From NCBI GenBank assembly GCA_027081275.1, contig JALWKV010000071.1:1-63452 (forward strand): a stretch of DNA of 63,452 nt, given 5' to 3'. Below are positions 1,921-30,297 of the stretch, in pieces. The translations under genes and the position numbers were made by a program. Each line of letters begins with the position of its first letter. The first letter of the stretch is position 1. Source of the DNA: Gammaproteobacteria bacterium. GTDB lineage: Bacteria > Pseudomonadota > Gammaproteobacteria > UWMA-0217. The notes beneath the pieces were generated by a model that saw nothing but the letters and a program-made list of their open reading frames with translations, did no database searches and was not told where the DNA came from.

Positions 1921-4137
1921 CTAGTTGAAGAGCCCCTTGAGCTTGTTCTGCAGTTGCTCCTCGAGCTTCTGCTTCAGTTCCTCTTCCTTCGCCTTGAGCT
2001 TTTCCTGCGCGCGCGCCTTTTCGGCATCGGCCTTCGCCTTCAGCCTGGCTTTCTCCTCTTCGGCGCGAGCACGCAGTTCGGCCTCCTTCTTCGCCTGTTC
2101 CGCATCGAGCTTCTTCTTCAGCTCCGCCTTTTTCTTGTCCAGCTCGACCTTCGCGCGCGCCTTGGCCATCGCATCGGCCTTGAGCTTGATGGAGAGATCG
2201 GAGAACGGGCCGGTGATGCGAATCGGCAGGTAGTTGTAATCCTTTTCCGGCGCGTCGGCTGTGGCGAGCCGCAGCGTGTAGTCGATCTTCATGGCCGGCA
2301 GATCGACCGTGCCGCTGCCGTGGACGCGGAAGATCGGCGTGACGATCTTCAGGTCGTCGCTGCTGATGACGCCCTGCCGGATCACGCCGCTGAGCTCCAT
2401 CAGAGAGAATTTGGTGTCTTCGGTGATCTCCTCTGTCAGCGGCGGCTTGCCCTGGAACTTGCGCACGACGTTCTGCGCCTCGTGGATCTTGCGCGACAGC
2501 TTCGAACCCTTGATCGTGCCGTCGGTGAACTTCGCCGCGAACTTGCCGCCGAGCTGACGAATCAGCCCCGAGACGGTATTGCCCGCGGTCCGCACGCTGG
2601 CGTTGAAATTGGCCGTACCGGAGATGTAGCGATCACCGAACAGCGTCTCCAGAATGCCCTCGGAGCGCACGCCGGCGAGATCGACCTTGCTGCTGTATTT
2701 CGGCGTCTTGCCGGTCACGTCGAGGGCCGCGTCGATGCGGGCATGTCCCTGGTAGAGATCGGCCGACAGCGGGGCGATGGCGAGCTTGCCACCCTTGGCG
2801 CTGATCGTGACCGAGGCATCTTCGAACAGCAGCTTGCTGGCGGTCAGCTTCTTCACCGTGGCCGTGCCCTGCAGGTCGAGCGAGCGCAGCGTGTCGATCG
2901 GCAGGGCGATCACGTCACTGGCGCCGGCCTCGGCCTTGCCGGCCTGCACGTCGGCGGCGCTGGCCTTGCCCACCGGCGGCAGATAGCGATCGACGTCGAT
3001 CTGGTCGAGCAGCAACTTGAAGCGCAGCGCCATGCGGCTGAAGTCGACGACGCTCACCTCGCCCTGCAGCGTCGAGTCGTCGAGCGTCGCCTCCAGATCG
3101 GTCAGAGCGAAACGGCCTGTGTCGCCATTGAAGCGGAAGCCGAGCGTCGATTTGCCAAGCACGGCGGGATCGCTCGTCGCTGGCGGCGCGATGTCGAGCT
3201 TCGTCAGCAGCACCTTCGGACTGAACTCGTTGCTGCGAAGTTCGCCGCTGTAGGTTGGCGCATCGAGCAGCTTGCGCACGTGGACATTGCCGTCGAGGGT
3301 CAGGTCGAGCGTCTCCAGCGTCAGCGGGTCGATGTCCAGCGTCTGCCCCTTGAGGTCGGCCTTCAGATCGAGGCGGCTCGTCGCGGTGATCGAGCCGCCC
3401 GGAATCGACTTGCCGCTCACCGTCTTGGTCAGCTCGAGGTCGTCGAAGCGATAGCGGCCATGTTCGAGGTCGGCCGTCAGCTTGCCATTGAGCTGGAGCC
3501 GCGCCGTCATGCCGTCGAGCTGCGCCGTCAGGTCCGCCTCCACCGGCACCGGCCGATTGAGCGCCAGCACGCCGGTTCGCAGGTTGAACGGATCAATCCG
3601 CACCGCCGTGCCGCTCTGGCGGTCGGTATAGCTCAGCTTCGCGTTCGCCACCTCCAGCCCCGCGATGCGGATATCGACATCGGGCACGCCGCCGGCTTTG
3701 CTCGCCGGCTGCTGCTCGGCGGGCCGCGCCTCGGCCTTGCCGCCGAGGTCGCTCCAGTTGTCCTTGCCGCTGGCAAGCTTCTCCAGATTGACGGTCACGC
3801 CCTTGAGCAGGATCTTCTTCGTTTCGATGCGCTTCTTCAGCAGCGGCGTCAGCGCGACGTGGATCTGCGCCTGTTCGATGCCGGCGAACACCGGCGTGGA
3901 GAAGCCGGGCGGGTTGGCCAGCGTGGTGCGCCCCAGATCGAGCCCGAGCCACGGGAACAGCGACCACTCGATGTCGCCGGCGATGGTCAGATCACGGCCG
4001 GTCGCCTTCTTCACCTGCGCGGCGATCTGCGGCTTGTAGTCGTTCGGGTCCAGCGTCGCCACCAGCCAGGCGACCGAGCCGGCGGCGACGACCACCAGCA
4101 GCAGAATGCCGAGCAACAGCCATTTGAGGAATTTCAT
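1921..4137 (-). CDS. asmA: AsmA family protein
   Basis: The 738-aa protein has an N-terminal membrane anchor (about residues 5-29) followed by an AsmA domain beginning LDPNDYKPQIAAQVKKATGR, and a large periplasmic region of the AsmA/TamB-like type. The C-terminal 90 residues are an unbroken Lys/Glu/Ala-rich coiled coil (KKKAELKKKLDAEQAKKE and on). AsmA proteins are inner-membrane anchored and are linked to lipid transfer and outer-membrane assembly. It is the first gene of a tight operon with mutY and yggX. The very charged C-terminal helix is longer than in E. coli AsmA. Confidence 0.93.
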   Translation of the reverse strand: MKFLKWLLLGILLLVVVAAGSVAWLVATLDPNDYKPQIAAQVKKATGRDLTIAGDIEWSLFPWLGLDLGRTTLANPPGFSTPVFAGIEQAQIHVALTPLLKKRIETKKILLKGVTVNLEKLASGKDNWSDLGGKAEARPAEQQPASKAGGVPDVDIRIAGLEVANAKLSYTDRQSGTAVRIDPFNLRTGVLALNRPVPVEADLTAQLDGMTARLQLNGKLTADLEHGRYRFDDLELTKTVSGKSIPGGSITATSRLDLKADLKGQTLDIDPLTLETLDLTLDGNVHVRKLLDAPTYSGELRSNEFSPKVLLTKLDIAPPATSDPAVLGKSTLGFRFNGDTGRFALTDLEATLDDSTLQGEVSVVDFSRMALRFKLLLDQIDVDRYLPPVGKASAADVQAGKAEAGASDVIALPIDTLRSLDLQGTATVKKLTASKLLFEDASVTISAKGGKLAIAPLSADLYQGHARIDAALDVTGKTPKYSSKVDLAGVRSEGILETLFGDRYISGTANFNASVRTAGNTVSGLIRQLGGKFAAKFTDGTIKGSKLSRKIHEAQNVVRKFQGKPPLTEEITEDTKFSLMELSGVIRQGVISSDDLKIVTPIFRVHGSGTVDLPAMKIDYTLRLATADAPEKDYNYLPIRITGPFSDLSIKLKADAMAKARAKVELDKKKAELKKKLDAEQAKKEAELRARAEEEKARLKAKADAEKARAQEKLKAKEEELKQKLEEQLQNKLKGLFN

Positions 4138-26284: not shown

Positions 26285-26410
26285 CGGGATCGCGTCCTCT
26301 GGTGGTAGTATTCGGTCAGACCTGGTCGATAGAAGGTCGCTATTCTACACGGAGACGGCAGCAGGCGAGCTGTCTCTCCGCCACACCCCACTTTGCAGCC
26401 GAAGTGTCCC

Positions 26411-29104
26411 ATGACCGATTCCAGCAAGCCGCCGCTCATCCTCGTCGATGGTTCCTCCTACCTCTACCGCGCCTTCCACGCCCTGCCCGCGCTGACCACC
26501 AGCGACGGCCGCCCGACCGGCGCGGTGCGCGGTGTCGTCAGCATGGTCAAGAAGCTGCTGCGCGAGTACCAGCCGACCCACATGGCGGTGGTGTTCGACG
26601 CCAAGGGCAAGACCTTCCGCGACGACCTCTACGCCGAGTACAAGGCGACGCGACCGCCGATGCCGGACGAGCTGGCGGCGCAGATCGAGCCGCTGCACGC
26701 GATGATCCGGGCGCTCGGCATTCCGGTCATCGTCGAGGAGGGCGTCGAGGCCGACGATGTCATCGGCACGCTCGCCAGACAGGCGCGGGAGCGGGGTTTC
26801 GACGTGCTCATCTCCACCGGCGACAAGGACATGGCGCAGCTGGTGGACGACCACATCACGCTGATCGATACGATGACCGACCGCATCCTCGACCGCGAAG
26901 GGGTCGAGAAGAAGTTCGGCGTGCCGCCGGAGCGGATCATCGACTACCTGACGCTGGTCGGCGACACCTCGGACAACATCCCCGGCGTCGAAAAGGTGGG
27001 GCCGAAGACGGCCGCCAAGTGGCTCGACAAGTACGGCTCTCTCGATGGCGTCATCGAACACGCCAACGAGATCGGCGGCAAGGTGGGGGAAAACCTGCGC
27101 AAGGCGCTGGATCAACTCGAATTGTCGCGGGATCTGGTGACGATCCGCCTCGACGTGCCGCTGGACGAATCGATCGACGATCTCAAGCTGCAACCGCCCG
27201 ACGAGGAGGCGCTGCGGCAGCAGTATCAGGACCTCGAGTTCGTCACCTGGCTGAAGGAACTCAATCAGGATAGCGGCAACGCGCCGGAGGCCGACGGCGA
27301 CTACCGCGCCATCGTCACCGAGGAGGCGTTCGACGCCTGGCTGGCGCGGCTCGAGCAGGCCGAGCTGATCGCGTTCGACACCGAAACCACCAGCATCAAC
27401 TACATGGATGCGGAGGTGGTGGGCCTCTCCTTCGCCATCCGGGCCGGCGAGGCTGTCTATATCCCGGTGGCGCACAACTATCCCGACGCACCACCGCAAC
27501 TGGACCGCGACTGGGTGCTCGAGCGACTGCGCCCGCTGCTGGAGGACGAGAACAGGGCCAAGATCGGCCATCACCTCAAGTACGACCGCAACGTGCTCGG
27601 CAACCACGGCGTGACGCTGCGCGGCATTCGCCACGATACGATGATGGAATCCTACGTGCTGAACTCCACCTCGAGCCGACACGATCTCGACACCCTCTGC
27701 GAAAAGTATCTTGGCCACGAGAACATCCACTTCGAAGACGTGGCCGGCAAGAAGGGCGCCAAGCAGCTTACCTTCAATCAGGTCGATCTGGCCGTCGCGA
27801 TCCCCTACGCCGCCGAGGACGCCGACATGTGCCTGCGGCTGCACGAGCATCTCTGGCCGCAGCTGACGGCGATCCCGTCGCTGCGGCAGCTCTACGAGAC
27901 GATCGAGATTCCGCTGATTCCCGTGCTGTCGGGGATGGAGCGCAACGGCGTCCACATCGACGCGGAACTGCTGCGCAGGCAGAGCGGCGAGCTCGCCAAA
28001 CGGATGCAGGAGATCGAGCAGCAGGCGCACGAGGTGGCCGGCCACCCCTTCAACCTCGGCTCGCCCAAGCAGTTGCAGCAGATCCTGTTCGAGGAGCTGG
28101 GACTGCCGGTCATCCGCAAGACGCCGAAGGGCCAGCCGTCGACGGCCGAGGATGTGCTGCAGGAGCTGGCGCTCAGCTACGAGCTGCCGCAACTGATCCT
28201 GGAGCACCGCAGCATGGCCAAGCTCAAGTCCACCTACACCGACAAGCTGCCGGAGCTGATCAACCCGAAAACAGGGCGCGTCCACACCTCCTACCATCAG
28301 GCGGTCACCGCCACCGGCCGGCTCTCGTCATCGGACCCCAACCTGCAGAACATCCCGGTGCGCACCGAGGAGGGGCGGCGCATCCGCCAGGCCTTCAGCG
28401 CGCCCGAGGGCAAGCGCATCGTCGCCGTGGACTATTCGCAGATCGAGCTGCGCATCATGGCGCACCTCTCCGGCGACGAGGGCCTGCTCAAGGCCTTCGC
28501 CGAGGGCAGGGACATCCATGCCGCCACCGCCGCCGAGGTCTTCGGCGGCGACCCGGACGAGATTGCGCCGGAATCGCGCCGCGCCGCCAAGGCCATCAAC
28601 TTCGGCCTCATCTATGGCATGTCGGCGTTCGGCCTCGCCAAGCAGCTCGGCATCGGCCGCAACGAGGCGCAGGAGTACATCGACCTCTACTTCTCCCGCT
28701 ACCCCGGCGTCAAGCGCTACATGGAGGAGACGCGCAAGCTGGCGCACGAACAGGGCTATGTCGAGACCGTCTTCGGGCGTCGTCTGTACCTGCCGGACAT
28801 CAACTCACGCAACAATCAGCGCCGCCAGTACGCCGAGCGCACGGCGATCAACGCGCCGATGCAGGGCACCGCCGCCGACATCATCAAGATGGCGATGATC
28901 CGCGTGAACGACTGGCTGGCCGGACAGGCGGCGGAGGTGCTGATGATCATGCAGGTTCACGACGAGCTGGTGTTCGAGGTGCCGGAGGCGCCCGCCGAGG
29001 AACTGGCGGCCAAGATCGCAAGCATTATGGAGTCGGCCGCCACGCTGAAGGTGCCGCTGGTGGCCGATGTGGGCATCGGCGCCAACTGGGACGAGGCGCA
29101 CTAA
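26411..29104 (+). CDS. polA: DNA polymerase I
   Basis: The 897-aa enzyme has a 5'-3' exonuclease (LVDGSSYLYRAFHALP, VEADDVIGTLA, GDKDMAQL, about residues 1-290), an intact 3'-5' proofreading domain (FDTETTSINYM; residues about 305-500), and a polymerase domain (DYSQIELR, KAINFGLIYGMSAFGLA, VHDELVFEV). It fills gaps in repair and removes Okazaki primers. The ATG at 26411 is chosen over an upstream TTG. A 13-bp tandem duplication covers the stop codon. A candidate small RNA follows, then convergent engB. Confidence 0.98.
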   Translation: MTDSSKPPLILVDGSSYLYRAFHALPALTTSDGRPTGAVRGVVSMVKKLLREYQPTHMAVVFDAKGKTFRDDLYAEYKATRPPMPDELAAQIEPLHAMIRALGIPVIVEEGVEADDVIGTLARQARERGFDVLISTGDKDMAQLVDDHITLIDTMTDRILDREGVEKKFGVPPERIIDYLTLVGDTSDNIPGVEKVGPKTAAKWLDKYGSLDGVIEHANEIGGKVGENLRKALDQLELSRDLVTIRLDVPLDESIDDLKLQPPDEEALRQQYQDLEFVTWLKELNQDSGNAPEADGDYRAIVTEEAFDAWLARLEQAELIAFDTETTSINYMDAEVVGLSFAIRAGEAVYIPVAHNYPDAPPQLDRDWVLERLRPLLEDENRAKIGHHLKYDRNVLGNHGVTLRGIRHDTMMESYVLNSTSSRHDLDTLCEKYLGHENIHFEDVAGKKGAKQLTFNQVDLAVAIPYAAEDADMCLRLHEHLWPQLTAIPSLRQLYETIEIPLIPVLSGMERNGVHIDAELLRRQSGELAKRMQEIEQQAHEVAGHPFNLGSPKQLQQILFEELGLPVIRKTPKGQPSTAEDVLQELALSYELPQLILEHRSMAKLKSTYTDKLPELINPKTGRVHTSYHQAVTATGRLSSSDPNLQNIPVRTEEGRRIRQAFSAPEGKRIVAVDYSQIELRIMAHLSGDEGLLKAFAEGRDIHAATAAEVFGGDPDEIAPESRRAAKAINFGLIYGMSAFGLAKQLGIGRNEAQEYIDLYFSRYPGVKRYMEETRKLAHEQGYVETVFGRRLYLPDINSRNNQRRQYAERTAINAPMQGTAADIIKMAMIRVNDWLAGQAAEVLMIMQVHDELVFEVPEAPAEELAAKIASIMESAATLKVPLVADVGIGANWDEAH

Positions 29105-29118
29105 AGAGGCGCACTAAA
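29093..29118. repeat. 13-bp tandem duplication across the polA stop codon
   Basis: GAGGCGCACTAAA occurs twice in a row (29093-29105 and 29106-29118), then begins again (GAGGC). The first copy holds the polA TAA stop codon; the second carries another in-frame-like CACTAA shifted by 13 nt. Probably a replication-slippage product. Confidence 0.9.
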
Positions 29119-29208
29119 GAGGCCAGCAGACGACCGCGTGCAGGGGTTACATCGAGATTTTGCAACAGCAAAAATGTGACAGGGTTCCTTGAAATTTACA
29201 TTTTTTTA

Positions 29209-29236
29209 TTGAGATCCATTTCCGCTGTGCTAAACT
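29209..29236 (+). promoter_or_regulatory. Candidate promoter of the polA-engB small RNA
   Basis: TTGAGA (-35), 16-bp spacer and TAAACT (-10), preceded by TGC, an extended -10. The predicted start is near 29243, just before the first hairpin. Confidence 0.5.
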
Positions 29237-29242
29237 TTGCGG

Positions 29243-29364
29243 TGTTAACAAGCGCTTAAGCCCAGCGCTTCCCCGCTATCCTCCCTGAGCGGGGGTTGGC
29301 TCGAAACCCCAAATCGAGCCGCAAGAATTACCCCGGCCTGTCCGCTTTGGCCGGGGCTTTTTTT
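29243..29364 (+). ncRNA. Candidate small regulatory RNA between polA and engB (Spot 42/ErsA position)
   Basis: About 120 nt that fold into four consecutive perfect hairpins: AAGCGCT-N7-AGCGCTT (29250-29270), CCCCGCT-N10-AGCGGGG (29271-29294), GGCTCGA-N9-TCGAGCC (29298-29320), and the terminator CCCCGGCC-N10-GGCCGGGG plus CT7. The second loop, ATCCTCCCTG, is complementary to Shine-Dalgarno sequences, and the third loop is C-rich (AACCCCAAA). E. coli Spot 42 (109 nt) and P. aeruginosa ErsA are encoded at this same place, downstream of polA and beside engB. Positional kinship is likely; sequence homology is not shown. Hfq dependence and mRNA targets are inferred. Confidence 0.65.
29331..29364 (+). 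terminator. Rho-independent terminator
   Basis: CCCCGGCC-TGTCCGCTTT-GGCCGGGG followed by C and seven T. A strong intrinsic terminator; it is the 3' end of the candidate small RNA and a backstop for polA. It lies 16 bp from the engB stop on the other strand. Confidence 0.93.
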
Positions 29365-29380
29365 GCCCCCCCCTTTACTC

Positions 29381-29980
29381 CTAGGCAAAATCCAGCCACT
29401 GCTCCAACCTCGCATGGAGGCGATCCAGCCCCTGTCCCTTCGCGGCCGAGAAGGCCTGCACCGTCGCATCCACCCCTTCATCGCCGAGCAGCCGCTCCAC
29501 CGACATCAGCGCCTTCTGCATCGCGCCACGCTTCAGCTTGTCCGCCTTGTTGAGGAGGATATGCGCCGGCAGATGCTGGCCGGCGCACCAGTCGAGCATC
29601 TGCCAGTCATAGTCGGTCAGCGGGTGGCGGATATCCATGACGATCACCAGCCCCCGCAGCGCCTCCCGCTCGCGCAGATAGGCCTCGATCAGCCGCCCCC
29701 AGCGGCGGCGTTCCGCTTCCGGCGCCCTGGCAAAGCCGTAACCCGGCAGATCGACCAGCTGGGCGCCGTTGTCGAGACTGAAGAAGTTGATCATCTGCGT
29801 CCGCCCCGGCGTCTTGCTGACATGGGCCAGCTTGCGCTGCCCGCAGAGCCGGTTCAGCGTGCTCGACTTGCCGGCATTGGACCGCCCGGCAAAGGCCACC
29901 TCGGGCCCGGTCGGCGGCGGAAACTGGTTCGGCGCGGCGCAACTGATGGCGAAAGTGGCGGATTGGAAGAGGTGCTTCAT
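29381..29980 (-). CDS. engB: Ribosome biogenesis GTPase EngB (YihA/YsxC)
   Basis: The 199-aa GTPase has G1 GRSNAGKSS, G2 with PGRTQMINFF, G3 DLPGYGFA and G4 NKADK. It is needed for assembly of the large ribosomal subunit. The ATG at 29980 (MKHLFQSATFAIS) fits the family; the frame stays open upstream but only into non-coding DNA and a MITE. It is convergent with polA and divergent from cytochrome c4, the usual polA-engB-cytochrome c4 neighbourhood. Confidence 0.96.
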   Translation of the reverse strand: MKHLFQSATFAISCAAPNQFPPPTGPEVAFAGRSNAGKSSTLNRLCGQRKLAHVSKTPGRTQMINFFSLDNGAQLVDLPGYGFARAPEAERRRWGRLIEAYLREREALRGLVIVMDIRHPLTDYDWQMLDWCAGQHLPAHILLNKADKLKRGAMQKALMSVERLLGDEGVDATVQAFSAAKGQGLDRLHARLEQWLDFA

Positions 29981-30123
29981 GGCATTGACCGAAGGGACGG
30001 GGGTGGGAACGAAAGGGCCGCGATGACCCCGCAGGGCGGCGCAAAGTCTAGCATGACGCCAGCCTCCGACCGCACCGGGCCGCCGCGCATGGCGTATCCA
30101 CTTCACTCGGTCAGAAACATGCC

Positions 30124-30297
30124 CGTAACTGCTCGGATTGCCTCTGAGATCCGGCAGTTCAAGACAGAATCGCATCGCCATCCAAGGCTCCTTGCGAAAT
30201 ACAGGCCATCCGTGGGTATAAATGTGGGTTTACAAAGGAAAATGACCATTCTCGAACGCAGAAATGGCGGATGTCAGAGGTGAGCCGAGTAGTTACA
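30124..30297. repeat. MITE-like element, copy B
   Basis: 174 bp, the same length and orientation as copy A. The left end is CGTAACTGCTCGG...CCTCTGAGATCC and the right end GGATGTCAGAGG...GAGTAGTTACA. The C-to-T change that makes CCTCTGA here is mirrored as TCAGAGG at the other end, so pairing is kept. About 34 bp of sequence left of the element (from 30090, GGCGTATCCACTTCACTCGGTC) also resembles the left flank of copy A. Its right end is 5 bp from the predicted -35 box of the cytochrome c4 gene. Confidence 0.85.

Follow-up and report, generated by a model that had tools for sequence, protein, structure and literature searches.

A predicted small RNA of the anti-hemB family between polA and engB in an uncultured gammaproteobacterium

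The intergenic region between polA and engB is a recurrent site of small RNA genes. In Escherichia coli it holds spf, the gene of Spot 42 (RF00021), an RNA repressed by cAMP-CRP, and in Pseudomonas the same gap holds, on the same strand as the RNA described here, the gene of ErsA (Pseudomon-1, RF01719), an RNA of 132 nt. ErsA is dependent on AlgU (sigma22) (PMC8395346) and acts by base pairing, partly with Hfq (PMC8395346, PMC8575079). The Rfam family anti-hemB (RF02837) includes ncS04 of Burkholderia cenocepacia, a 105-nt transcript whose 3' end was confirmed by RACE and whose level showed no significant change in the conditions tested (PMC5688073). Both RF01719 and RF02837 are linked to engB, and they share no clan in the Rfam release searched. 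An action at ribosome-binding sites has been proposed or shown for small RNAs with CU-rich loops, including the double-hairpin or toxic kind (PMC5688073, PMC11722255), which comprises ncS03 and ncS27 of RF02278 and the similar S17 of Bordetella.

We analysed a window of 63,452 nt, contig JALWKV010000071.1 of Gammaproteobacteria bacterium (UWMA-0217; assembly GCA_027081275.1), in which the following features surround the candidate RNA gene:

26393-29104, + strand: polA, DNA polymerase I, the upstream neighbour (NCBIfam), with a putative start and its stop at 29104
29209-29236, + strand: sigma70-like promoter with -35 TTGAGA, a spacer of 16 and extended -10 TG-C-TAAACT
29243-29364, + strand: predicted small RNA of about 120 nt, supported by the fold, the Rfam match and a homologue model; 5' end inferred
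29250-29270, + strand: hairpin 1, AAGCGCT-TAAGCCC-AGCGCTT (RNAfold)
29270-29364, + strand: full-length match to RF02837 (anti-hemB), 51.5 bits (cut-off 49.5), covering model positions 1-81 of 81
29271-29294, + strand: hairpin 2, CCCCGCT-ATCCTCCCTG-AGCGGGG, whose anti-Shine-Dalgarno-like loop lies at 29278-29287 (RNAfold)
29298-29320, + strand: hairpin 3, GGCTCGA/TCGAGCC, with the C-rich loop AACCCCAAA (RNAfold)
29331-29364, + strand: intrinsic terminator, an 8-bp stem CCCCGGCC/GGCCGGGG at 29331-29356 with a 10-base loop, followed by seven T at 29358-29364
29381-30181, - strand: engB (yihA, ysxC), ribosome-biogenesis GTPase, the convergent neighbour (NCBIfam), with its last base at 29381

The gene identities confirm that the RNA lies in the gap of spf and ErsA, as the first-pass annotation had stated, and its terminator ends at 29364, adjoining engB. 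The four perfect consecutive hairpins closed by a strong terminator that it had described, together with the loop it gave for hairpin 2, were all found by reading, and RNAfold predicted exactly these four at -58.5 kcal/mol compared with -40.0 +/- 3.6 for dinucleotide shuffles (z -5.1), none of 200 shuffles being as stable. A simple terminator scan does not report the terminator: its loop of 10 bases exceeds the 3-8 that the scan accepts. The extended -10 promoter claimed ahead of the hairpins was likewise located (-35 at 29209-29214, TG at 29228-29229, -10 TAAACT at 29231-29236); it is the single sigma70-like site that a promoter scan detected in 29000-29500, a region where shuffles average 0.2, and the genus mate (L007) has the same layout, TTGAGT...TGGTAGACT. 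Hairpin 1 begins with the perfect palindrome AAGCGCTT, unchanged across the bacterial family, which could permit RNA dimers or an alternative fold. The engB reading frame is 266 aa long, about 70 residues of which precede the conserved EngB domain; the true start probably lies within the frame, at the internal ATG of MKHLFQSATF.

By its profile match, the predicted RNA belongs to the described family RF02837, to which it adds a new member from an uncultured bacterium; it is not a new family. The alignment to the anti-hemB model runs over its full length and includes the identical segment CCUCCCUGAGCGGG; the hairpin with the CUCCCUG loop, the second hairpin and the terminator are common to both, whereas hairpin 1 is present in the window RNA and missing from the Rfam model. 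Its sigma70-like promoter also distinguishes it from anti-hemB members. As in the Thauera, Aromatoleum, Denitromonas and Zoogloeaceae loci, the RNA lies beside engB. In the two betaproteobacteria examined, Aromatoleum and Thauera, it lies between engB and hemB, with hemB next beyond the RNA, which is probably the origin of the Rfam name, whereas the window RNA has polA upstream and not hemB as its neighbour; hemB adjacency is no part of the Rfam score definition of RF02837. The double-hairpin sRNAs share with the window RNA a hairpin with a CU-rich anti-Shine-Dalgarno-like loop and a terminator, but they occupy other genomic positions and have two hairpins in their short form versus four here, and the window falls far below the RF02278 cut-off (13.6 vs 50 bits). 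S17 and ncS27, which belong with RF02278, were rejected as counterparts of this locus.

A DNA search of the bacterium's own genome found one place only, the window locus. In all five genomes of the bacterial family that were sampled (the window, its genus mate and three further genera) the RNA is present at the polA/engB locus, and in the other four it is flanked by polA and, where the contig reaches, by engB. The stretch comprising hairpins 1 and 2 is the same in all five sequences but for the length of the C and G runs in the hairpin-2 stem, with hairpin 1 invariant, and the promoter region and terminator are variable. A covariance model, R1, was trained on 20 of the class's loci (its E-values are rough owing to a shortened calibration). 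Applied at E <= 0.01 to 80 named loci that had been retrieved through the similarity of their EngB, it gave 38 matches in 34 of them, 35 within 500 nt after the engB 3' end. Among the matched loci are those of Thauera, Aromatoleum, Denitromonas and Zoogloeaceae, which Rfam assigns to anti-hemB independently. At E <= 0.001, R1 matched 186 of 370 genomes sampled from the class, which is Gammaproteobacteria judging by the records fetched, in a tally that includes the loci from which the model was built.

The stems themselves were assessed with a structure-guided model of the four hairpins built from the five family sequences only (R2), used in place of a MAFFT alignment of all homologues that misaligned hairpins 1 and 3 and was set aside. 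R2 gave 67 matches, 65 of them distinct, and recovered the betaproteobacterial anti-hemB loci as well as the ErsA locus of Halopseudomonas. In the alignment of these 65 homologues, 27 of 28 stem pairs show changes on both sides, including all 7 pairs of hairpin 1; paired cells amount to 96.8%, compared with 73.4% in shuffles and 50-54% when the partner is slid by one base. The alignment is fitted to the structure and its pairing counts lean towards it, yet the contrast is large. While the hairpin-2 stem covaries, its loop retains CUCCC in 57 of 65 homologues, and CCC is found in the hairpin-3 loop of 60. At the level of sequence, stems that covary around unchanging loops are expected of a regulator that acts by base pairing, and the polA-engB stretch very probably holds a genuine gene for a small regulatory RNA.

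The relationship to ErsA is looser. At the Halopseudomonas pachastrellae locus that Rfam calls ErsA (L097), R1 scored 30.6 bits (E 2.5e-4, rough), R2 18.4 bits (E 0.0077) and RF02837 21.7 bits, below its cut-off; the R1 alignment is good over the terminator and weak over hairpin 2, and it rests much on the terminator and the C-rich segments. A search of 351 bases with the RF01719 model gave no match to the window with an E-value of 10 or less. Since the ErsA scores are modest, the hairpin-2 alignment is weak and RF01719 does not match, we regard the window RNA as probably an orthologue of ErsA in a distant version and not as a member of RF01719. The link is based on position, on the promoter class in relatives and on these model scores; CU-rich loops are common to both RNAs, and the RNA of L097 likewise lies between polA and engB. 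The proposal of a Spot 42/ErsA-type sRNA therefore stands for the ErsA type, through synteny, covarying stems, conserved loops and the model link to the annotated ErsA locus, and for Spot 42 by position only. Similarly, the statement that the sequence resembles neither known RNA is valid for Spot 42, whose resemblance in sequence or profile is confined to the terminator, and fails for the ErsA/anti-hemB kind, given the matches of RF02837 and R1.

The promoter also differs from that of ErsA. The strict pattern GAACT, about 16 bases, then GTC or TC, the form recognized by sigmaE/AlgU, was found upstream of 40 of the 65 homologues, including the ErsA locus and betaproteobacterial members, and several others are one base off. 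The strict search did not find it in the window, which has no GAACTT...GTC promoter of the ErsA kind, or in the genus mate; both have TTGAG(A/T)...TG-N-TA(A/G)ACT instead, and the family member L002 has elements of both promoter kinds. This suggests that control has changed and that the RNA may no longer be under sigmaE in this lineage. A promoter change through loss of sigmaE was rejected as the reason for the difference, since the genome encodes RpoE (297 bits, over the cut-off). There is about an even chance that ErsA, anti-hemB and the window RNA form one ancient engB-linked superfamily of gamma- and betaproteobacterial sRNAs, ancestrally controlled by sigmaE/AlgU, in which the genus of the window has moved to a housekeeping promoter and kept the target-facing loops.

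The hairpins could alternatively be the 3' UTR or terminator of the polA mRNA, either processed into an RNA or purely terminating, instead of an independently transcribed gene. Since polA lies upstream on the same strand and no + strand terminator-like site was listed between it and the hairpins, polA transcripts may well end there. This is nevertheless unlikely, because upstream of the hairpins there is a promoter whose elements are conserved in the genus mate, conservation is higher in the hairpin-2 loop than in the stems, some copies of the RNA are inverted or in tandem, and in two betaproteobacteria the RNA has engB and hemB on its two sides, polA being absent from the fetched stretch; in addition, ErsA and ncS04 were both published as separate transcripts.

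A small RNA gene of its own could still have a different ancestry. We consider it improbable that this is a Spot 42 orthologue whose sequence similarity has been lost: it shares the gene gap of E. coli, and the best match of R1 in a 5-kb E. coli region falls on spf, but that match has 8.2 bits (E 0.4, rough) and is mostly terminator, and the Spot 42 model RF00021 has no match in the window. Less credible still is a truly new family merely sharing the locus with ErsA and anti-hemB, an idea to which the silent ErsA model and the narrow margin over the anti-hemB cut-off (the genus mate scores 48.2 bits, just under it) lend something. Against it, the anti-hemB alignment covers the full length with its identical segment, and a series of homologues leads from the family of the window to anti-hemB of Aromatoleum and Thauera at the engB locus. 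The suggestion in the first-pass annotation of a possible new family is unsupported, because RF02837 matches over its full length above the gathering score, and that family already has a mapped transcript in Burkholderia.

We therefore favour, at a probability of roughly 0.8, the reading that the locus is an sRNA gene of the anti-hemB family and a probable ErsA orthologue, with its own sigma70-like promoter and Hfq-assisted pairing of its loops to ribosome-binding regions. The promoter would drive an RNA of about 120 nt with four hairpins, whose CU-rich hairpin-2 loop (AUCCUCCCUG), possibly joined by the CCCC loop of hairpin 3, would pair in trans with the ribosome-binding regions of target mRNAs; by covering these sites, the RNA would mostly repress translation. 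Hfq could assist this pairing, and an hfq gene is present in the genome (96.4 bits, cut-off 61.7). Sites complementary to the loop number 31 in the genome, one being the RNA gene itself, versus 9 for a reversed control pattern; none of the 31 is a convincing target, and the look of a ribosome-binding site is found only in L180 (CAGGGAGGAAGGACG-ATG). The best-known target of ErsA is algC. A check of the window's genome showed no obvious AlgC orthologue and none whose gene carries a matching site; its two PGM/PMM-domain matches look like GlmM and a phosphoglucomutase on a reading of the sequences rather than a family test.

A known sRNA family thus gains an uncultured lineage, and the remaining interest lies in the likelihood that RF01719 and RF02837 are one family, and in the different promoter. 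The presence of R1 matches in about half of the sampled genomes of the class, clustered beside engB in the loci examined, suggests that two separate Rfam families could be a single one. In that case, findings made on ErsA could be extended to Burkholderia, to Thauera and to many environmental bacteria, while ancestral control by sigmaE would become testable.

The arrangement of the RNA varies in some genomes. Two to four neighbouring copies are found at G160:C33:13149-13910, G253:C8:6558-7506 and G024:C49:43658-44044, and at positions 4127 and 4321 of L039 and 3024 and 3253 of L069, the last two pairs being in the engB gap, which suggests repeated tandem duplication. In L009 (1501-1602), L072 (4148-4277), L070 (4310-4429) and L100 (4111-4245) the orientation of the RNA with respect to engB is the reverse of the usual one.
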